A stretch of DNA of 64,000 nucleotides from Agromyces sp. S2-1-8 (GTDB taxonomy: Bacteria; Actinomycetota; Actinomycetes; Actinomycetales; Microbacteriaceae), in contig NZ_JAJOLP010000001.1 in NCBI RefSeq assembly GCF_021129215.1, positions 1,116,001-1,180,000 on the forward strand, read 5' to 3'. The position numbers were made by a program, and so were the translations under genes. Positions 45,779-56,321 of this stretch are shown here, piece by piece; positions within the stretch are counted from its first letter, which is position 1; every line of letters starts with the position of its first letter. The notes beneath the pieces were generated by a model that did not search any database, was not told the DNA's origin, and saw only the letters and a list, made by a program, of their open reading frames with translations.

Positions 45779-47242
45779 ATGTCGGATGCCTCGCTGAGTG
45801 CCCGTGCCCTGCAGAACCTCCTCGGAGACTGGCGGGGCGGCCTTCCCGGCGCCGCGTACCTCGCGCTCGCCGACCGGGTTCGGCTGCTCGTGCTCGACGG
45901 GAGGGTCAGCGTCGACACCCGGCTGCCGGCCGAGCGAGAGCTCGCCGAACGGCTCGGCGTCAGCCGCACGACCGTCACCGCCGCCTACCGGCACCTGCGC
46001 GAGCAGGGCTACCTGCGGAGCCTGCGCGGGTCGGGGAGCGTCGCCCGCATCCCTGGAGCGCCCGTGGTGCTGCCGGTCCCACCGGCCGCCACGCACCTCG
46101 ACCTGTCGAAGGCGGCACCGCCCGCACTGCCGTGGCTCGCCGAGGTGGCCCGCGACGCGGCCGACGAACTGCCTGCGCATCTCGGCGACTCGGGGTTCGA
46201 CCCGATCGGCATGCCCGCCCTCCGCCAGGCGATCGCCGACCGCTACGGCGTGCGCGGACTGCCGACCCGGTCGGAGCAGATCATGGTGACGATCGGGGCG
46301 CAGCACGCCATCGGGCTGCTCGCGCGGGTGCTCGTCGGCCGGGGCGATCGCGCCGTCATCGAGGCGCCGACCTACCCGCACGCGTACGAGGCGCTGCAGC
46401 TCGCGGGCGCACGGCTCGTGCCCGTGCCGGTCGCGCCCCACGACCCGCGGTTCGACAGCGGCGTCCCGCCGCACGGCGACGAGGTCGAGGCGCTCGAGCG
46501 CGCGCTCGCCCGTACCAACCCGTCGACGGCGTACCTCATGCCCGACTTCCAGAACCCCACCGGCCGCAGCCTCGACGCCGAGGCGCGACGCCGGCTGCTC
46601 GACGTCGCCGCACGCCAGGGCACGGTCGTCATCGCCGACGAGACCACCGCCGAGCTCGACATCGACCGCGACCGCGCGCCGCTGCCGCTCGCGGCCTACG
46701 GGCCGCCCGGCACCGCGGTGCTCATCGGCTCCCTCGGCAAGACGGTGTGGGGCGGGGTGCGCATCGGCTGGATCCGTGCGGAGCCCCCGCTCATCCGCCG
46801 ACTGCTCGCGGCCCGACTGCCGGGCGACCTCGGCACGCCGATCCTCGAGCAGCTCATCGCGACCCGGCTCATCGGGCGGATGGACGAGATCCTCGAGCTG
46901 CGCCGGTCCGAGCTCCGTGCGGGTCGCGATCGGGTCGAGACGCTCATCGCCGAGCTGTTCCCCGACTGGCGCGTGCCGCACGTCGACGGGGGCATCGCCG
47001 TCTGGATCGGCCTCGGTGCACCGATCAGCTCGCAGCTCGCGCTCGCGGCCCGGGCGCAGGGGCTGCTCATCGCCGCGGGTCCGCGATTCGGCATCGACGG
47101 GGCGTTCGAACGGTTCCTGCGTCTGCCGATCTGCCAGCCGGTGGCCGAGACCGAGGCCGCCGTGCACGCACTGCGCCGTGCCTGGGAGTCGATGCCCGGA
47201 GTCGCCGCGGCCGACGCCGGGCTGCTGCCCGCCGTCGTCTAG
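45779..47242 (+). CDS. YczR-type MocR regulator
   Basis: 487 residues. GntR-type winged helix at residues 30-100 (YLALADRVRLLVLDGRVSVDTRL split at the turn, then ELAERLGVSRTTVTAAYRHL). Aminotransferase-like domain from 120 with PTYPHAYEALQLAGARLVPV, MPDFQNPTGR and GSLGKTVWGGVRIGW, the lysine being the PLP site. Belongs with YczE by synteny. Ligand is unknown. ATG overlaps a CATTAT stretch, so a slightly later start cannot be excluded. Confidence 0.88.
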   Translation: MSDASLSARALQNLLGDWRGGLPGAAYLALADRVRLLVLDGRVSVDTRLPAERELAERLGVSRTTVTAAYRHLREQGYLRSLRGSGSVARIPGAPVVLPVPPAATHLDLSKAAPPALPWLAEVARDAADELPAHLGDSGFDPIGMPALRQAIADRYGVRGLPTRSEQIMVTIGAQHAIGLLARVLVGRGDRAVIEAPTYPHAYEALQLAGARLVPVPVAPHDPRFDSGVPPHGDEVEALERALARTNPSTAYLMPDFQNPTGRSLDAEARRRLLDVAARQGTVVIADETTAELDIDRDRAPLPLAAYGPPGTAVLIGSLGKTVWGGVRIGWIRAEPPLIRRLLAARLPGDLGTPILEQLIATRLIGRMDEILELRRSELRAGRDRVETLIAELFPDWRVPHVDGGIAVWIGLGAPISSQLALAARAQGLLIAAGPRFGIDGAFERFLRLPICQPVAETEAAVHALRRAWESMPGVAAADAGLLPAVV

Positions 47243-47363
47243 CTCGGGGCGCGCACCGGCCGTTCACGTACCGGTCACGATCGCGTCACCGGCGCGGAAC
47301 CCCGGCGACAGCCGTCGGCGGGACTCTGGGCCCGACTCGCCCGTCGACCCCAGGAGCCCCCTC

Positions 47364-49733
47364 ATGCCCGCACGCCCGCTGTCCCTCACCGCATTCGCGG
47401 TGGCATCCGTCGTCGCCGGGTGCGCGCTCGCCGCCCCAGCCGTCGCCGCGCCCCGCTCGAACGACACCGCGACCGCCGCGATCGCCGCCGACCGCGAGGA
47501 GACCGCGGGCCCCGGCTTCTCGCGGACCGCGACCTACCCCGTCTTCCAGAACGCGGCCGCGGGCGTCGATCCGGCCGAGGCCGCCGTCGCCGAGATCTCG
47601 GCCGTCTCGGACGACGGCCGCACGGTCGTCTACACCGACGCCCTCGGCAAGCGCATCGGCTTCGTCGACCTCGGCGACCCCGAGCACCCGGTCGGCACCG
47701 GCACCGTCGAGCTCGCCGAGCTCGGCCACGCCGACGACCAGCCCACCTCGGTCGCGATCGTCGGCGACCGCGTGCTCGTCGTGATCGACGAGACGGGCGG
47801 CGACTTCCCGAACCCGCGCGGCCGTCTCGACGTGCTCGACCTCACGACCCGCGAGCGGCTCGCCTCGATCGACCTCGGCGGCCAGCCCGACTCCATCGCC
47901 GTCTCTCCCGACCGCAGGACCGCCGCGATCGCGATCGAGAACCAGCGCGACGAGGAGCTCGAGGTCGACGGCGTCGAGGGCGGCCTGCCGCAGGCGCCCG
48001 GCGGCTTCGTGCAGACCGTGAAGCTCACCCCGGCGAAACCGTCGAGCTGGAAGGCCCGGCCGGTCGCGTTCGACGACCGCTGGGCGAAGGCGGCCTTCGC
48101 CGCGGCCGGCGTGTACGCCGCGGGCGACCCCGAGCCCGAGTACGTCGCGTTCTCGCCGTCGGGACAGCTCGCCGTCACCCTCCAGGAGAACAACGCCGTC
48201 GCGCTCGTCGACGTGCAGAGCCGCCGGGTCACGGGCGCCTTCTCGGCCGGCACCGTGACCGGATCGGGCTTCGACGTCAAGAAGGACAAGAAGGTCGACG
48301 CGACCGGGTCGATCACCGACGTGCCGCGCGAGCCCGATGCGATCGCCTGGGTCGACGACCGGCACGTCGCGACCGCCAACGAGGGCGACCTGCGCGGCGG
48401 CACCCGCGGCTGGTCGGTGTTCGACGTGCGCACGGGCGACGTGGTCTGGGACGCGGGCGACTCGTTCGAGCAGCTCGCGATCTCGCGCGGGCTCTACAAC
48501 GACGACCGGGCCGGCAAGAAGGGCCCGGAGCCCGAGGGCCTCGCGGTCGCGACGATCCGAGGCATCCGCTACGGGTTCGTCGCGAGCGAGCGCTCGAACT
48601 TCGTCGCCGTCTACGACCTCACCGAGCCCGCATCGCCGCGCTTCGTGCAGACGTTCTTCTCGACGAACGGCCCAGAGGGCATCCTTCCGGTGCCCTCGCG
48701 CGACCTCCTCGTCGTCTCGAGCGAGACCGACGCCGCCTCGGTCTCGGTGCGTGCGAGCGTCAACGTGTACCGGTTCGGCGACGAGGCGGCGCGGCCGTCC
48801 GTCGTGAGCGGCGACGACGCGAAGGGCCGGGCGATCGGCTGGCTCGCGCTGGGCGCGCTGTCGGCCAAGCCCGGTGAAGCGTCGGCGATCTACGCCGCGA
48901 GCGACAACGCGCTCAGCCCGTCGACGATCTTCACGGTGGATGTCGCGGCCGAGCCCGCACGCGTCACCGACCGGCTCGTCGTCACGAAGGGCGGCGCCCC
49001 GCAGGCGCTCGACGTCGAGGGCGTGTACGCCCGCCCCCAGGGCGGGTTCTGGCTCGCGAACGAGGGCGCGACGGGAGCCGCGAACTCGCTCGTGCGCACC
49101 GACGGCGCAGGCGCCGTCGTCGAGACCGTCGCGCTGCCCGCCGATATCGCGGCGCACGTCGGCAAGTGGGGCTTCGAGGGCGTCACCGCCACGACCGATG
49201 CCGCGGGCGCCGAGGTCGTCTTCGTCGCCCTGCAACGTCCGTTGTGGGCCGACCCGGCGGCGGCGGCGGGCCCGATCGACGGCGAGGGCGTGACCCGCGT
49301 CGGGCGCTACGACACCGCATCGAAGACGTGGACCTGGTTCGGCTACCGGCTCGAGCAGACCTCGGTCGCCGGGGACTGGCTCGGCCTCTCGGAGATCGTG
49401 GCGGTCGACGCCGACACGCTCGCCGTCATCGAGCGCGACAAGCTCAACGGTCCGGCGGCGGCGGTCAAGCGCGTCTCCACCGTCGAGGTCGGCGGCGTCG
49501 CCGGGGTGGCCGGCGTCGGAGCGCCCGGCGAACTGCCGGTGCTCGAGAAGTCGCTCGCGGTCGACGTGCTGCCGGCGCTCCGGGCCGGCAACGGCTGGAC
49601 GCAGGAGAAGCTCGAGGGGCTCACGATCGGGGCCGACGGCGACGTCTACGCCGTGACCGACAACGACGGGCTCAAGGATGCCACGGGCGAGACGGTCTTC
49701 CTCCGCCTCGGCGCAGCCGGCGACCTGTTCTGA
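47364..49733 (+). CDS. Secreted esterase-like-activity-of-phytase family protein with beta-propeller N-terminus
   Basis: 789 residues. Signal peptide 1-33 (CALAAPAVAAP). The N-terminal 370 residues look like a seven-bladed propeller (DGRTVVYTDALGKRIGFVDL, PDSIAVSPDRRTAAIAIENQ). Residues 400-780 match the PF13449 phytase-like esterase family: PEPEGLAVATIRGIRYGFVA, GPEGILPVPSRDLLVVSSE, EGVTATTD and WLGLSEIVAVDADTLAVIERD then YAVTDNDGLKDATGET. Probable extracellular phosphoesterase or ligand-binding protein. A strong terminator follows. Confidence 0.82.
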   Translation: MPARPLSLTAFAVASVVAGCALAAPAVAAPRSNDTATAAIAADREETAGPGFSRTATYPVFQNAAAGVDPAEAAVAEISAVSDDGRTVVYTDALGKRIGFVDLGDPEHPVGTGTVELAELGHADDQPTSVAIVGDRVLVVIDETGGDFPNPRGRLDVLDLTTRERLASIDLGGQPDSIAVSPDRRTAAIAIENQRDEELEVDGVEGGLPQAPGGFVQTVKLTPAKPSSWKARPVAFDDRWAKAAFAAAGVYAAGDPEPEYVAFSPSGQLAVTLQENNAVALVDVQSRRVTGAFSAGTVTGSGFDVKKDKKVDATGSITDVPREPDAIAWVDDRHVATANEGDLRGGTRGWSVFDVRTGDVVWDAGDSFEQLAISRGLYNDDRAGKKGPEPEGLAVATIRGIRYGFVASERSNFVAVYDLTEPASPRFVQTFFSTNGPEGILPVPSRDLLVVSSETDAASVSVRASVNVYRFGDEAARPSVVSGDDAKGRAIGWLALGALSAKPGEASAIYAASDNALSPSTIFTVDVAAEPARVTDRLVVTKGGAPQALDVEGVYARPQGGFWLANEGATGAANSLVRTDGAGAVVETVALPADIAAHVGKWGFEGVTATTDAAGAEVVFVALQRPLWADPAAAAGPIDGEGVTRVGRYDTASKTWTWFGYRLEQTSVAGDWLGLSEIVAVDADTLAVIERDKLNGPAAAVKRVSTVEVGGVAGVAGVGAPGELPVLEKSLAVDVLPALRAGNGWTQEKLEGLTIGADGDVYAVTDNDGLKDATGETVFLRLGAAGDLF

Positions 49734-49999: not shown

Positions 50000-51520
50000 C
50001 TATCGGCGCAGCGTGGACCGCCGCACCGTGAACCGACGCAGTCCGACGAGCACGAGGCCGGCCGTCAGCGCGAGCGCTGCGAGGCCGAGCGCCGAGACGT
50101 CGGCGCCCGTCGAGGCGAGCGCGCCGTCGCCGGCCGCGATCACCATGTCACCGTCGGAGGCGACCGAAGAGCCGTCAGAACCGTCGTCGGAGCCGCCGTT
50201 CGAACCGTCACCGGGGTCGGTGGGGTTCGTCGGGTCCGTGGGGTCCGTGGGGTCGGTCGGGTCCGTCGGGTCCGTCGGGTCCGTCGGGTCCGTCGGGTCG
50301 GTCGGGTCCGTCGGGTCGACGATGGTCGTCGAGCCGTCCGTCTCGCTGTCGCCGATCACCGAGATCGCGTTGCCGCCGATCGTGATGGGCAGGGACAGGT
50401 CAGGCAGCAGCTGTGTTCCCCCGAGCAGCCCGCCGTCACCGTCCGTCGTCGCCGAACCGCCCCCGGTTCCCGGCAGAACGACCGTCTCTGCATTCGTCGA
50501 CGTGGAGTCGCCGATGCCCGAGATCGCATTGCCGCCGATCGTGATCGGCAGATCGAGCGCCGGCAGCACCTGCGTGCCGCCGAGGATCGAGTCCTCGCCG
50601 GACGTCGTCGCCTCGCCCGAGCCGCCCCCGGTGAGCACCGCGGTGGTCGCATCCGACGAGGTCGAGTCGCCGATCACCGAGATCGCGTTGCCGCCGACGG
50701 TGATCGGTGCATCGAGCGAGGGCAGCACCTGCGTGCCGCCGAGCAGGCTGTCCTCACCCGACGTCACCGCCTCGCCCGTGCCGGAGCCCGACCCGCCCGT
50801 GCCCACTTCGGTCACGGCGTCGCTCGACGACGAGTCGCCGATGCCCGAGATCGCGTTGCCGCCGACCGTGATCGGCAGATCCAGGTCGCCGAGGATCTGG
50901 GTGCCGCCGAGCAGGCTGTCCTCGCCCGACGTCACCGCCTCGCCGGCGCCCTCGTCCGAGCCGCCGGCCTCGGTCGCCACCGCGGTCGTCGCGTCGCTCG
51001 ACGACGAGTCGCCGACGACCGAGATCGCGTTGCCGCTCACGGTGACCGGCACGTCGACGTCGACGAGCCCCTGGGTGCCGCCCAGCAGCGAGTCGTCGCC
51101 ACTGGTCTCGGCGCTGCCCGCTTCGCTCGCACCGTCGTCGGTCGCGACCTCGGTGGTCGCATCCGACGACGACGAGTCGCCGATCACCGAGATCGCGTTG
51201 CCGCCCACGGTCACCGGGATGTCCACGTCGATGAGCGCCTGGCTGCCCGACCCGATGCCGTCGTCGCCGGAGGTGACGGCGACCGGTTCGGCGTCAGCGG
51301 TCGAGACCTCCGTCGCGGCATCCGACGACGACGAGTCGCCGATGAGCGAGATCGCGTTGCCGCCGATCGTCACGGGAAGGTCGATCGAGATCCCCGCCTG
51401 GGTTCCCGATGCGATGCCGTCGTCGCCACCCGTGTCCGCGTGGGCGACGCCGGCCCCGAGGAGCGTGAGCCCCCCGGCGAAGAGGGTCGCGTACAGCGCC
51501 CTCAATGCCATTCTCTTCAT
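50000..51520 (-). CDS. Seven-module chaplin-like surface protein with LAXTG sortase signal
   Basis: 506 residues, strong AGGAGG site before the ATG. Signal peptide 1-28 (GAGVAHAD). Seven modules of about 40 residues start near 32, 85, 140, 199, 255, 308 and 361; each reads roughly LPITVGGNAISVIGDSSSSDA with a preceding GTQ. This matches the chaplin core PVNVCGNTVNVIG except that the cysteines are replaced by glycine or serine. Ten DPT tripeptides (402-431) form a rigid spacer, then LASTG at 468-472, a hydrophobic helix and RR tail: a sortase E-type LAXTG anchor. Likely a covalently wall-linked, hydrophobic surface protein. Confidence 0.85.
   Translation of the reverse strand: MKRMALRALYATLFAGGLTLLGAGVAHADTGGDDGIASGTQAGISIDLPVTIGGNAISLIGDSSSSDAATEVSTADAEPVAVTSGDDGIGSGSQALIDVDIPVTVGGNAISVIGDSSSSDATTEVATDDGASEAGSAETSGDDSLLGGTQGLVDVDVPVTVSGNAISVVGDSSSSDATTAVATEAGGSDEGAGEAVTSGEDSLLGGTQILGDLDLPITVGGNAISGIGDSSSSDAVTEVGTGGSGSGTGEAVTSGEDSLLGGTQVLPSLDAPITVGGNAISVIGDSTSSDATTAVLTGGGSGEATTSGEDSILGGTQVLPALDLPITIGGNAISGIGDSTSTNAETVVLPGTGGGSATTDGDGGLLGGTQLLPDLSLPITIGGNAISVIGDSETDGSTTIVDPTDPTDPTDPTDPTDPTDPTDPTDPTDPTNPTDPGDGSNGGSDDGSDGSSVASDGDMVIAAGDGALASTGADVSALGLAALALTAGLVLVGLRRFTVRRSTLRR
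50228..50317 (-). repeat. Ten tandem 9-bp units encoding Asp-Pro-Thr
   Basis: Plus-strand unit is GGGTCCGTC or one-base variants. Near-identical copies suggest recent slippage, so copy number may vary between strains. Confidence 0.85.
50324..51427 (-). repeat. Seven chaplin-like modules (about 160-170 bp each)
   Basis: Each unit carries the near-identical core GAGATCGCGTTGCCGCCG on the plus strand, with divergent linkers of 10-20 residues. Cores at codons 48-62, 102-114, 157-170, 215-228, 271-284, 325-337 and 378-390. Confidence 0.85.
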
Positions 51521-51621
51521 GATCCAGTCCTCCTGACTGATGGGTGATTTCGCTCCCGGGCAGGGAGCGATGACCGTGTCCGCGGGGGCACGCAGGCGCG
51601 TGCGAGCGGACCGGTCCCCGG

Positions 51622-52755
51622 TCAGTCAGGGGTGGAATCGGTGTCGTACACCGGCGACGACGGCAGCTCGTCGTCGACGGAGTGGAGCACGAGCGACGTG
51701 AGTGCGTCGAGTTCGAGAGCGGCGTGGGCCGTGTCGGCGGCGCTCGACGCGCCGCCCGAGCCCGCGCCGGAAGCGCCCGAGCCGGAACCGGCTCCGCCGG
51801 AGCCGCCGGCAGGCGGTGTCGCCACGGGTGAATGGTCGCCGGGCGGGGCTCCGCCGCCACCCGGCAGTGCGGCGCCGGAACCGAGGCCGCCCACCGTCTC
51901 GGCGACCCGTCCGGACCCCTCGGGTCCGAGTGCGATGCCCGACGAGGGCACCGCAGCCGATGCGCCGGGAAGCACGGGCGCCAGCGGCGCGTTCGGCGCC
52001 TGAACGCCCGGTGTGCCGGGCTGCTCGCCGGGAACACCCGGGTCGACCCCCGGGATGCCCGGGCCGGCCGAACCGCCGTCGCCCGGAAGCACGGGGATCG
52101 AGGGGATCTCGGGGATGACGCCGGTGCCGTCGGTCGGCAGCTCGCCGGGCGTGCCGACGACCGTGCCGAGGGTGTCGTCGACCGCGCCGACGACGGGGTC
52201 GAGGACGCCTCCGACGGTGTCGTCGCCGAGCAGGCCGCCGACGATCGGGAGCGATCCGACGAGTCCGTCGACAGCACCGGTGACAGGGGTCGTGATCGAG
52301 CCGACGGTGTCGCCGCCGGCGATGTCGGAGACCGTGCCCGTGACCTCGTTGACGACCGTTCCGACGGTGCCGTTTCCGGTGCTGACCACGTCATTCGTGG
52401 TGTCGGTGACGGTGTCGACGACGTTCGGAACGACCGCTTCGACGACGTCGCCGACAGGTGCCGGGGCGACGTCGACGACGGGCTCGACGAGCTGGTTCAC
52501 CGGCTCGGTGACCGCGTCGACGACCCCGCCGAGCGTGTCGCCGACCGCACCGGTCGCATCGGTCACGCCGCCCACGAGCGAGGTCACGCCGCCGAGCAGT
52601 CCGCCCGGCTTCGACTCCTCGGCCGATGCGCTCGATGCGCTCGAGAAGAGCGAGAACGCGAGCCAGATCGCCGAGCACACGAGGGCCAGGAGGCCATATC
52701 GAAGAAGCGCAGCGCGGAGCCACGGCACCTGCCGCTCGGCAACCGCTGTGGCCAT
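51622..52755 (-). CDS. Secreted low-complexity Val/Gly/Thr-Pro protein of the chaplin-like locus
   Basis: 377 residues from ATG 52755, which has GAGGTGG upstream (ATG 52782 adds nine residues). Residues 10-45 form one long hydrophobic segment, signal or anchor. Residues 50-200 consist of degenerate units such as VGDTLGGVVDAV, VVNEVTGTVSDI and GLVGSLPIVGGLLGDD, hydrophobic beta-prone repeats; 200-280 are Pro/Gly-rich (PGIPGVDPGVPGEQPGTPG); then a Gly/Ser linker and a soluble tail. No sortase motif. It lies 101 bp upstream of the chaplin-like gene on the same strand, so both are probably surface components. No known family. Confidence 0.7.
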   Translation of the reverse strand: MATAVAERQVPWLRAALLRYGLLALVCSAIWLAFSLFSSASSASAEESKPGGLLGGVTSLVGGVTDATGAVGDTLGGVVDAVTEPVNQLVEPVVDVAPAPVGDVVEAVVPNVVDTVTDTTNDVVSTGNGTVGTVVNEVTGTVSDIAGGDTVGSITTPVTGAVDGLVGSLPIVGGLLGDDTVGGVLDPVVGAVDDTLGTVVGTPGELPTDGTGVIPEIPSIPVLPGDGGSAGPGIPGVDPGVPGEQPGTPGVQAPNAPLAPVLPGASAAVPSSGIALGPEGSGRVAETVGGLGSGAALPGGGGAPPGDHSPVATPPAGGSGGAGSGSGASGAGSGGASSAADTAHAALELDALTSLVLHSVDDELPSSPVYDTDSTPD

Positions 52756-52898
52756 GGCCCACCACCTCACGTCGAGCGCCACCTTACCGAGGGTGCTCGC
52801 CGCGCGACGACCCCCGTTCGGGGGTCAATCGGATCTTCTTCACCTCGAATTCGACACTCGGTGACATCCGTCGTCGACCCTGCTGCGAGAATCGAGCA

Positions 52899-55800
52899 AT
52901 GCACCTGCTCGCTGCGCTCAGCATGAAGAACCGCGCCCTCATCGCGCTCGTCACGATCGTGGTCGCGATCTTCGGCGGCATCTCGCTCACGAGCCTCAAG
53001 CAGGAGCTCGCGCCCTCGATCGAGTTCCCGCAGTTGTCGATCGTCTCCAGCTATCCGGGCGCTTCACCCGATGTCGTCAACAACGACGTGTCGACGCCCA
53101 TCGAGACCGCGATCCAGGGCATCACGGGCCTCGAGTCGACCTCGACGACGAGCTCGACCGGACTCAGCCGGGTCACGGCGAGCTTCACGTACGGCACCGA
53201 CCTCGCGTTCGCCGAGCAGAAGCTGCTGTCGGCGGTCAACCGCATCCAGAATCAGTTGCCCGACGACGTCGACCCGCAGGTCATCGCGCTCTCGCTCGAC
53301 GACTTCCCCGTGCTGCAGATCGCGGTCACCGGCGCCGACGACGTCAGCGCCCTCTCCGACGAGATCGAGCGCACGACGCTCGGCGAGATCACCGACGTCG
53401 ACGGCGTCCGCGACGCGACCCTCGTGGGCGAGATCGGCCAGCGCGTGACGATCACGCCCGACCCCGAGAAGCTCGCCGCCCACGGCCTGACGCAGCAGAC
53501 GATCCGCGACGCGCTCGCCCAGAACGGCCTGCTCGTGCCGGCCGGCACGATCACCGAGGGCGACTCGACCTTCGCGGTGCAGACGGGCACCCGCATCGGC
53601 AGCGTCGACGAGATCGCGGCGCTGCCGGTGCTCGGCGCGACCGAGGTGCAGGTGCCGGACGACTCGGAGTTCGTGCCCGACGACGTCACGACGCCGCCGA
53701 CCGACGGTGGAGACGGTCTCGCCGACGGCACCGACGTCGTGCGCGTGCCCGTCGCGGCGACCATCGCGGATGTCTCGACCGTCGCCCTGACCGACAACCC
53801 CGTGACGAGCATCTCGCGCGTGAACGGCGAGCCGGCCCTCACCATCTCGGTCACGAAGCTCCCGGCCGCGAACACGGTCGAGGTGTCGAACGCGGTGACG
53901 GCGCTGCTGCCCGACCTCGAGGCGTCGCTCGACACGACCAACCCGGGGGCGACGTTCACCGTCGTCTTCGACCAGGCGCCCTACATCGAGCAGTCGATCG
54001 AGTCGCTCGCGACCGAGGGACTGCTCGGCCTCGCCTTCGCGGTCCTCGTCATCCTGATCTTCCTGATGTCGGTGCGGGCGACCCTCGTCACCGCGATCTC
54101 GATCCCCACGTCGGTGCTCATCACCTTCATCGGCCTGCAGGTCGCCGACTACACGCTCAACATCCTCACGCTCGGCGCGCTCACGATCGCGATCGGGCGC
54201 GTGGTCGACGACTCGATCGTCGTCATCGAGAACATCAAGCGGCACCTCGTCGAGGGCGTCGACAAGGCGTCGACCATCGTGCGCGCCGTGCGCGAGGTCG
54301 CCGGCGCGATCACCGCGTCGACGATCACGACCGTCGCCGTCTTCCTGCCGATCGCGCTCGTCGAGGGCGTGACGGGCGAGCTGTTCCGGCCGTTCTCGCT
54401 CACGGTCACGATCGCCCTGCTCGCGTCGCTGCTCGTCTCGCTCACCATCGTGCCCGTGCTCGCGTACTGGTTCCTGAAGCCCGCGAAGCTGCGCAAGGTC
54501 GAGGGCTCCGAAGACACCGCCGACGAGGCGGAGCTCGAGGCCGAGGAGGCCGCCGCCGCATTCGTCGACGACGTGTGGCTCGCACCCGAGCTGCGAGACG
54601 AGAGCGGCGCGACCGGGCTGCCCGTCTCGCGCCCGTCGGGCGTCGCGACGGCCGAGCGGGCCGCCGCCGAGGCATCCCCCTCGGTCGCCCACCCGGTGGT
54701 CGACGAGCTCGAGCACCCGTCGCGGCTGCAGCGCGGTTACCTGCCGATCATCGCCTGGACGCTCAAGCACGGCGTCGTCACGATCATCATCGCGGTGCTC
54801 GTGCTCGCCGGCACGGTCGCGATGACGCCGCTCATGAAGACCAACTTCCTCGGGTCGAGCGGGCAGAACACGTTCCGCGTGTCGCAGGAGCTGCCCGTCG
54901 GCACGAGCCTCGACGCGCTCGACGCGGCGTCGAAGCCGGTCGAGCAGGTGCTGCGCGACACCGATGGCGTCGAGACCGTGCAGACCTCGATCGGCACCGG
55001 TTCCAACCCGCTCGCCGCGGCGTTCGGCGGCGGCGGCGCGAACGTGACCTACTCGGTCACGACCGACGACGACGCCGACCAGGACGCCCTGCAGGCCGAG
55101 GTGCGCGACGAGCTCGACGGGCTCGACGCCGACGAGGTGGGCGAGGTCTCGCTCGCCGCATCGAGCGGCTTCGGCGCCTCGAACGACATCGAGGTCGACA
55201 TCACCGCCTCGAACGCGGAGGACCTGCAGGACGCGACCGACGCGGTCGTCGACGAGCTCGACGGCGTCGACTCGGTGTCGCAGGTCACGTCGAACCTCTC
55301 CGAGTCGCGCCCGTACGTGGCGGTCGAGGTGAACCGGGCGGATGCCGCGGCGGCCGGCTACTCCGAGGTCGCGCTCGGCGGGCTCGTGTCGGCGGCGATG
55401 CAGCCGCAGAGCGCCGGATCGGTCGTGATCGACGAGAAGACGCTGACGATCTACCTCGCGAGCGAGAACCCGCCGGTCACCGTCGAGGAGCTCTCGGCGC
55501 TCGAGGTGCCGACCCCGGCCGGCGTCGTGCGCCTCGACACCCTCGCGACGGTCGAGCAGGTCGAGGGTCCCGCCTCGGTCACGACCGTGCAGGGGCTGCG
55601 CAGCTCGACCGTGTCGGCCACTCCCGCCGGCGACGACCTCGGCACGGCGTCGGGTCAGGTGCAGGCGGCCGTGAACACGGTCGACCTGCCCGAGGGAACG
55701 ACGGCGTCGATCGGCGGCGTCACCGCCGACCAGCAGGAGTCGTTCTCGCAGCTCGGCCTCGCGCTGCTCGCGGCGATCCTCATCGTCTACATCGTCATGG

Positions 55801-56321
55801 TCGCGACGTTCCGCTCGCTGCTGCAGCCGCTGCTGCTGCTCGTCTCGGTGCCGTTCGCGGCCACGGGCGCGATCGCACTGCAGGTCGTCACGGGCATCCC
55901 GCTCGGCGTCGCCTCGCTCGTCGGCGTGCTCATGCTCGTCGGCATCGTCGTCACGAACGCGATCGTGCTGGTCGACCTCGTGAACCAGTACCGCGACCGC
56001 GGCATGAACGTGCGCGACGCGCTCATGCACGGTGCGTCGCGTCGTCTGCGCCCGATCCTGATGACGGCGCTCGCGACGATCTTCGCGCTGCTGCCCATGG
56101 CGCTCGGCATCACCGGTCACGGCGGGTTCATCTCGCAGCCGCTCGCGATCGTCGTGATCGGCGGCCTCCTGTCGTCGACGCTGCTCACGCTCGTCGTGCT
56201 GCCCGTGCTCTACGACCTCGTCGAGGGCGGTCGCGAGCGCCGGCGGGCGAGGAAGGCGGCCAAGGCGGCGGGTGCGGGAGCGACGCCGGCGGCCCCCGAG
56301 GTCGCCGCGCCGGTCGAGTAG
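52899..56321 (+). CDS. RND-family efflux permease (HAE1/SwrC-like)
   Basis: 1140 residues, AcrB-like. N-terminal helix, then FPQLSIVSSYPGASPDVVNNDVS, the family marker. Porter subdomains at 35-340 and 700-900; membrane blocks at 380-560 and 960-1110 with GRVVDDSIVVIENIKRHL (motif with acidic residues) and GIVVTNAIVLVDLVNQYRDRG. An acidic insert near 520-600 (EGSEDTADEAELEAEEAAA) between TM halves is unusual. No periplasmic adaptor or outer-membrane partner is adjacent, as in Gram-positive SwrC/YerP. GAGAAT lies 6 nt before the ATG. Its TAG stop is provided by a family A repeat. Confidence 0.9.
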   Translation: MHLLAALSMKNRALIALVTIVVAIFGGISLTSLKQELAPSIEFPQLSIVSSYPGASPDVVNNDVSTPIETAIQGITGLESTSTTSSTGLSRVTASFTYGTDLAFAEQKLLSAVNRIQNQLPDDVDPQVIALSLDDFPVLQIAVTGADDVSALSDEIERTTLGEITDVDGVRDATLVGEIGQRVTITPDPEKLAAHGLTQQTIRDALAQNGLLVPAGTITEGDSTFAVQTGTRIGSVDEIAALPVLGATEVQVPDDSEFVPDDVTTPPTDGGDGLADGTDVVRVPVAATIADVSTVALTDNPVTSISRVNGEPALTISVTKLPAANTVEVSNAVTALLPDLEASLDTTNPGATFTVVFDQAPYIEQSIESLATEGLLGLAFAVLVILIFLMSVRATLVTAISIPTSVLITFIGLQVADYTLNILTLGALTIAIGRVVDDSIVVIENIKRHLVEGVDKASTIVRAVREVAGAITASTITTVAVFLPIALVEGVTGELFRPFSLTVTIALLASLLVSLTIVPVLAYWFLKPAKLRKVEGSEDTADEAELEAEEAAAAFVDDVWLAPELRDESGATGLPVSRPSGVATAERAAAEASPSVAHPVVDELEHPSRLQRGYLPIIAWTLKHGVVTIIIAVLVLAGTVAMTPLMKTNFLGSSGQNTFRVSQELPVGTSLDALDAASKPVEQVLRDTDGVETVQTSIGTGSNPLAAAFGGGGANVTYSVTTDDDADQDALQAEVRDELDGLDADEVGEVSLAASSGFGASNDIEVDITASNAEDLQDATDAVVDELDGVDSVSQVTSNLSESRPYVAVEVNRADAAAAGYSEVALGGLVSAAMQPQSAGSVVIDEKTLTIYLASENPPVTVEELSALEVPTPAGVVRLDTLATVEQVEGPASVTTVQGLRSSTVSATPAGDDLGTASGQVQAAVNTVDLPEGTTASIGGVTADQQESFSQLGLALLAAILIVYIVMVATFRSLLQPLLLLVSVPFAATGAIALQVVTGIPLGVASLVGVLMLVGIVVTNAIVLVDLVNQYRDRGMNVRDALMHGASRRLRPILMTALATIFALLPMALGITGHGGFISQPLAIVVIGGLLSSTLLTLVVLPVLYDLVEGGRERRRARKAAKAAGAGATPAAPEVAAPVE

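Follow-up and report, generated by a model that had tools for sequence, protein, structure and literature searches.

A seven-module chaplin without cysteines

What would a single multi-module chaplin that lacks cysteine build at the surface of Agromyces, and with what help? To our knowledge, chaplins have been studied almost solely as the aerial-growth coat of Streptomyces. The gene considered here lies in a 64,000-nucleotide stretch of the Agromyces sp. S2-1-8 genome, hereafter the window. Sequence comparison agrees with the genus, since pieces of 1.1-1.5 kb from five named Agromyces loci recur without any difference in loci taken from genomes of that genus. The initial annotation placed it in an unbranched actinobacterium, a doubtful description given that Agromyces forms branching hyphae that fragment.

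The ORF (50000..51520, on the reverse strand, as are all features below unless marked otherwise) encodes 506 amino acids from an ATG with AGGAGG 8 nt upstream. A predicted signal peptide (residues 1-28, 51437..51520, ending AHA before D; residues 2-25 are helical in a low-confidence model) is followed by seven tandem chaplin-type modules with their linkers (residues 31-401, 50318..51430), a stalk of DPT repeats (residues 402-436, 50213..50317), and an LASTG sorting signal (residues 468-472, 50105..50119) that precedes a hydrophobic segment and a tail rich in Arg. The modules are about 42 residues long, share the core P-[VI]-T-[VI]-x-G-N-A-I-S, with the core proline at residues 49, 102, 158, 216, 272, 325 and 378, and are 52-81% identical to one another (mean 66%). 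The core spacing proposed in the initial annotation was confirmed, while the ending of its consensus proved slightly narrow, modules 1 and 3 ending in L-I-G and V-V-G. Its count of seven cysteine-free modules was likewise correct: no cysteine occurs in the whole protein, and the residue before GN, a cysteine in most Streptomyces domains, is glycine in six modules and serine in one.

PF03777 (ChpA-C) matched the protein with E=8.2e-11, its 42 bits being twice the cut-off of 21. Comparison of a profile of 36 modules (seven from the window and 29 from homologues) with one of 12 Streptomyces domains gave a profile-profile alignment over 31 columns (95.6%, E=1.3e-8). The assignment to the chaplin family made from the letters alone is therefore right. 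No solved chaplin-like structure was found, the best E-values being 0.04 for the protein, a match to the stalk, and 0.79 for the Streptomyces profile; the AlphaFold model shows repeated beta strands with low confidence (pLDDT 55.1).

The C-terminus, with its LAXTG motif, hydrophobic stretch and basic tail, is that of a long chaplin, whereas seven modules stand where long chaplins have two domains. The class E sortase that had been anticipated elsewhere in the genome was found: the single sortase match (PF04203) is class E by NF033747, with 227 bits against a cut-off of 160. Class E sortases use LAXTG signals and anchor ChpC, according to the available part of PMC5148588, and we infer that one of this class would anchor the Agromyces chaplin to the wall.

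This chaplin appears to be alone. In the source genome PF03777 exceeded its cut-off in the seven-module ORF only, all seven module-profile matches fell within that ORF, and the one further PF03777 match (9.6 bits, E 4.79) lay far below cut-off; by these two profiles no second chaplin gene, short or long, was detected. Its composition is also distinctive. Of the 369 amino acids in the module region 54 are acidic and none is basic (net charge -54), and its GRAVY is 0.15, against 0.71 and a charge of -1 for one Streptomyces short chaplin. The highly hydrophobic mature protein typical of chaplins is thus absent here, hydrophobicity being confined to the module cores, which score 0.74-0.97 as compared to 0.99 for a Streptomyces chaplin core.

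Acidity of this degree, the Pro-rich stalk and the lack of a detected short chaplin for co-assembly would all suit a wall-anchored adhesin or spacer with stably folded beta modules, forming no polymeric coat or amyloid. PMC4255298, as far as its accessible text goes, mentions a chaplin role in surface attachment, possibly an older one, and places chaplin-like proteins even in a non-sporulating Arthrobacter. We regard an adhesin or spacer as a tentative possibility, set against cores nearly as hydrophobic as those of Streptomyces and against fibrils that form without disulfides from ChpE and from reduced chaplins (PMC3079736, in the portion available). The preferred reading is that the chaplin, together with the partner described below, likely builds a cell-surface coat without small chaplins of the Streptomyces type.

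A conserved upstream partner

Directly upstream of the chaplin lies an ORF of 377 amino acids from an ATG (51622..52755), with a GTG at 52782 as another possible start. The initial annotation covered 50000-51520 and noted neither this partner gene, which lies beyond that interval, nor the RNA element at its end. The product is predicted to carry a signal peptide; it also has amphipathic segments rich in Val, whose hydrophobic moments peak at 90-100 degrees, a Pro/Gly/Ser linker and a C-terminus ending in DTDSTPD (..DELPSSPVYDTDSTPD). AlphaFold modelled it as helices with low confidence (pLDDT 59.5). No Pfam or NCBIfam family exceeded its cut-off in the window partner. One of 19 relatives scanned in Pfam touches Collagen_mid; precomputed labels among 74 homologues comprise PF27499 in three and PF15984 in one, and six of the 74 that were scanned, including two bearers of PF27499, had nothing over cut-off.

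Partner and chaplin mostly occur together. All 20 Microbacteriaceae loci picked by their chaplin (L006-L024 and L043) have a partner-type ORF upstream, L006 covering the end of that ORF alone. A partner profile matched 79 of 299 Microbacteriaceae genomes, 72 of which are among the 93 with chaplin modules. Ten of the 21 genomes with chaplin only by profile were examined, and in each the ORF upstream of the chaplin shares the partner's end; of the seven with partner only, five (G271, G320, G181, G108 and G112; G099 and G171 were left out) have a chaplin-like start downstream, judged by the N-terminus alone. The upstream same-strand ORF ends in -PD in 29 and in -PG in one of 30 chaplin-chosen Microbacteriaceae loci. 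Beyond this family, a -PD ORF precedes the chaplin in two genomes of family f2 (G628, G643), three of family f24 (ending PPVVRTAADDPSFSPD), G405 (..SRPD) and a Nakamurella (..FSPD). Multi-module loci chosen by chaplin alone thus have the upstream ORF in 37 of 37 cases, with -PD in 36 and -PG in one. Among Streptomyces loci L080-L109, 27 of the 30 including 700 nt upstream of a chaplin domain, no -PD ORF of more than 80 amino acids was found within that distance.

Across 60 Agromyces genomes, the source included, the chaplin was detected in 42, the partner in 43 and the RNA element in 43, with one further weak partial match. One of them, G019, has partner and element with no chaplin detected. 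Three others (G036, G013 and G030; L242, L243 and L244) carry a second partner copy, and that of G019 (L232) is its only detected copy. These four copies have the usual ends, a Pro/Ala-rich middle and the same RNA element, after which comes an ORF of 35-54 codons. Its end, RRFPMRR, GRFPMRR or RSPMRR, resembles the C-terminus of some chaplins, so that it may be what is left of a chaplin or else encode a small protein.

Two neighbours deserve mention. Divergent from the partner gene, 52626-56321 on the forward strand encodes an AcrB/D/F-type RND transporter (PF00873, E=9e-208) in this Gram-positive actinobacterium, and such a transporter also adjoins the chaplin locus in L007, L011 and L012. The convergent neighbour (46776-49733, forward strand) has phytase-like esterase and choice-of-anchor I domains.

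A predicted three-way junction between the two genes

The region from the partner end to the chaplin start (51511..51645) is predicted to fold as a three-way junction. Its fold has a z-score of -4.49, and none of 200 shuffles was as stable. In helix P1, the last two partner codons and stop, CCT-GAC-TGA (51622..51630), face TCAGTCAGG (51532..51540), which runs into the chaplin Shine-Dalgarno sequence AGGAGG (51529..51534); P2 (approximately 51572..51619) and the CGCTCCC/GGGAGCG hairpin P3 (51551..51569) complete the junction.

A covariance model built from nine Agromyces sequences had one match in the source genome and, outside Agromyces, matched 19 of 45 dissimilar sequences at full length with E<0.001; 26 of 46 dissimilar sequences fell short of E<=0.001. 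The 19 and the window gave a cross-genus alignment of 20 distinct sequences, fitted to the model, in which 89.9% of cells pair. Shuffling lowers this to 67.1%, with none of 500 shuffles reaching the observed value, and sliding the structure by 1-3 columns lowers it to 37-47%. Two-sided changes affect 20 of 26 pairs, including all 18 in the P1 extension, P2 and P3 (helices 2-5). P1 proper has such changes in two of eight pairs, and one of its pairs fails in 13 of 19 sequences. Within Agromyces (30 distinct sequences, model-fitted alignment) two-sided changes affect six of 26 pairs, and all eight P1 pairs are invariant. Covariation is therefore the basis for P2 and P3, whereas the case for P1 comes mainly from codon usage and permutations, described below.

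Such covariation in P2 and P3 could mark a switch that senses a ligand or protein and masks the chaplin Shine-Dalgarno, with partner translation not the main input. Near P3 (51551-51581) the junction letters CCGAAG before and CAC after the helix recur, by eye, in several genera, as they might if a ligand or protein bound there. Rfam, searched over 51300-53000 up to E=10, has no match that overlaps the element. Two observations make a sensing switch of this kind unlikely in our view: the 5' strand of P1 consists of partner coding sequence and stop, so that any translating ribosome must disturb P1, and the junction letters of Agromyces differ from those of the other genera.

The partner tail matches the chaplin Shine-Dalgarno

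The final codons of the partner have the form CCY-GAY-stop and can pair with the chaplin Shine-Dalgarno region; for the window, CCTGACTGA and TCAGTCAGG are complementary at every position. Partner stop and chaplin ATG lie 101 nt apart in the window and 67-230 nt across loci, a long spacer for translational coupling. Tails were compared in the window and 100 loci, amounting to 95 distinct sequences. Counts of tail residues are biased, since the partner profile by which many of these loci were selected itself covers the tail, and the chaplin-chosen loci form the unbiased set.

Codon choice at the tail is strongly skewed. Of the 95 sequences, 57 use CCT and 38 CCC for the last proline, and none uses CCG or CCA, whereas the 1355 proline codons within up to 120 preceding codons comprise 129 CCT, 554 CCC, 616 CCG and 56 CCA (Fisher 1e-27, relatedness ignored). 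The aspartate codon covaries with the spacer: among loci with a TGA stop, CAATC is present in seven of nine with GAT and in 10 of 78 with GAC, and CAGTC in 29 of the 78 GAC loci. Bulges vary, so duplex energies were used rather than exact 5-mers. Among 46 mutually dissimilar sequences, duplexes of the last 18 nt of the partner with the 40 nt before the chaplin start averaged -15.0 kcal/mol for true pairs and -11.8 kcal/mol when pairs were mismatched; in 10,000 permutations the true pairing was never equalled. When the tail was recoded at random with synonymous codons, the native codons ranked at a mean percentile of 0.166, and 19 of 46 fall below 0.05. Compared with other stretches of its own gene, the terminal 18-mer paired best in six of 46 sequences and ranked among the top 5% in 13, for a mean percentile of 0.241, a control that is positive yet weaker than the permutation test. 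Relatedness, which inflates permutation tests, was not fully removed from any of these comparisons. The true Shine-Dalgarno is the single best duplex partner in two of 46 sequences, with a median rank of seven.

Some features of the tail speak for the protein. Proline is kept in 95 and aspartate in 94 of the 95 sequences, even where RNA pairing allows other residues, and the three f24 partners keep the tail codons and share an identical 16-residue end, although pairing over the Shine-Dalgarno looks weak there (-7.8 kcal/mol in L144; L143 and L145 lie outside the 46). One could then take the -PD end as a processing, export or docking signal with the Shine-Dalgarno match as a by-product. That is quite improbable, since such a signal leaves the absence of CCG and CCA (0 of 95 versus 672 of 1355) unexplained, and gives no account of the complementarity specific to true pairs, the synonymous-codon bias or the association of GAT with CAATC. 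A protein motif alone was our own first reading of the tail and was dropped, the codon bias indicating an RNA constraint; both constraints may act on it. A -PG variant (CCT-GGC-TGA) occurs in three loci, a Leifsonia and two more (L014, L152, L192), and pairing in L014 is weak (-9.3 kcal/mol).

Family spread and kinship

A database search scored 7994 candidates and retained 301 proteins at E<=0.001, mostly Microbacteriaceae where named, many already annotated as chaplin family protein or DUF320. Modules were counted in the window protein and the best 120 of the 301 homologues, fragments included. These 121 proteins hold 742 modules, four of which have any cysteine; 97 of the 121 carry LAxTG and five LPxTG, and the 101 complete members, the window protein among them, have 3-11 modules each. 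The module profile matched 93 of the 299 sampled Microbacteriaceae genomes. PF03777 alone under-counts, finding the family in 33 of the 60 Agromyces genomes as against 42 by module profile. The DPT stalk pulled many low-complexity loci of unrelated phyla into L025-L079, of which L036 and L043 alone were taken further as chaplin loci, with L030, L032, L064 and L076 giving entry to Streptomyces genomes.

Outside Microbacteriaceae, family f24 loci have 6-8 modules and one Nakamurella locus has 16. The initial annotation had proposed seven tandem modules as a new surface-coat architecture. That claim did not survive: because relatives and other families (6-16 modules) are multi-modular and cysteine-free domains are in print, the architecture is a widespread variant and no singular find. 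Loss of cysteine as a new trait was also rejected. ChpE (PMC3079736) and the C-terminal, second domain of ChpB (PMC13251363) are described as cysteine-free in the available parts of these papers, as is the second domain of one long chaplin in each Streptomyces genome compared below. With such exceptions inside the family, the two conserved cysteines per domain, which the 506-residue protein lacks, are not strictly defining.

Cysteines come as a pair or not at all in the 72 modules of nine loci (L122-L129 and L036): 54 modules have the pair, 18 have none and none has a single cysteine, a pattern that fits gain or loss of the disulfide as a unit. In the 6-8-module chaplins of family f24 (L123-L129) the first module is cysteine-free in six of seven and the others have the pair; no LPXTG-type motif was seen by eye in these proteins, and the sequence of L125, the seventh f24 locus, ends before the chaplin start. 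In four relatives (P0024, P0070, P0094 and P0104) a single module has acquired two cysteines spaced by five residues (GNAVCxVGDC), neither of them where the classical chaplin cysteines lie.

Convergence on a short glycine-asparagine motif would account for single-module PF03777 scores of 15-33 bits, where four Streptomyces genomes give 62-103 bits in all but one of their 39 matches, and for the mostly unmatched last 12 or so of 57 profile positions, but is very improbable given the whole-protein E of 8e-11, the 31-column profile match, and intermediates that combine cysteine-free and cysteine-paired modules within one protein.

How the locus may work

We consider it probable, from sequence and predicted folds, that the locus encodes a translationally coupled pair, a secreted partner and an anchored chaplin, which forms a hydrated, beta-rich wall layer and not a rodlet coat. 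CCT-GAC-TGA of the partner would pair with TCAGTCAGG-AGG ahead of the chaplin start, and the two hairpins between the P1 strands would complete the three-way junction that hides the chaplin Shine-Dalgarno. On reaching the end of the partner, a ribosome would melt P1 and free the chaplin site for translation, and opening of P1 would thereby fix the order and ratio of the two products. A stop codon and the next gene's ribosome-binding site within one helix are the anatomy of translational coupling by RNA unfolding; the pairing of the downstream Shine-Dalgarno with the end of the upstream gene is predicted from permutation, codon and covariation results and is weak in family f24. Given such coupling, chaplin and partner would be made together, with the partner first.

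The partner, likely secreted, may be a co-subunit or assembly factor for the anchored chaplin, in the place of short chaplins; its predicted export and amphipathic segments suggest that it helps to secrete, space or nucleate the chaplin. Since chaplin-like hydrophobic cores sit in a strongly acidic chain, the product is likely to be a hydrated, wall-bound, beta-rich layer or fibre serving surface attachment or protection, as opposed to a hydrophobic rodlet coat of the Streptomyces type.

A broader claim would be that of a two-protein chaplin system outside Streptomyces, in which an anchored, cysteine-free, multi-module chaplin and an amphipathic secreted partner are held in order and ratio by a conserved three-way-junction RNA, the stop codon of the partner clamping the chaplin ribosome-binding site. 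On this claim we judge the chances to be even, together with its corollary that the pair may predate the Streptomyces short-chaplin coat, as the presence of the -PD upstream ORF in other families suggests.

A widespread single-gene, cysteine-free chaplin with its own partner would open two questions to study, the role of chaplins prior to aerial growth and the assembly of a chaplin layer in which disulfides and short chaplins are lacking. The RNA element is unusual in that evolution has preserved the codons and stop of one gene to suit the ribosome-binding site of its neighbour, and it provides a directly testable model for long-distance translational coupling. Titles and abstract openings retrieved for chaplin with Microbacteriaceae, Microbacterium, Agromyces or translational coupling held no functional description of multi-module Microbacteriaceae chaplins.

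Comparison with known systems

The Agromyces chaplin shares with the Streptomyces long chaplins ChpA-C (PF03777) a signal peptide, chaplin domains, a Pro-rich linker and LAXTG, and in all four Streptomyces genomes compared (L084, L085, L086, L091) one long chaplin has a cysteine-free second domain. It differs in that long chaplins have two domains and are accompanied by short chaplins, whereas Agromyces has seven acidic GD-type modules and no short chaplin detected; the conserved upstream partner and RNA element also belong to the Agromyces locus. ChpE is likewise a cysteine-free chaplin whose fibrils need no disulfide, as the accessible part of PMC3079736 has it, but is short, single-domain, secreted and unanchored. 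Proteins annotated as chaplin family or DUF320 domain-containing are of the same family, with the same module architecture and sorting signal, and what is new over these multi-module chaplins is the partner gene and the RNA element. The rodlins RdlA/B resemble the partner as secreted companions of chaplins, secretion of the Agromyces partner being predicted; the latter, judged by Pfam and NCBIfam profiles alone, differs in having no family match over cut-off.

For the RNA element the nearest parallels are cases of coupling by RNA unfolding, with phage f1 VII-IX, MS2 coat-lysis and E. coli rpmI-rplT at +52 nt given as examples in the available text of PMC12548453. As in these, translation of the upstream gene would, by prediction, open a structure over the downstream ribosome-binding site. 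The Agromyces-type locus differs from them in placing the stop codon within the helix, in its spacer of 67-230 nt, and in a predicted three-way junction that recurs across genera.
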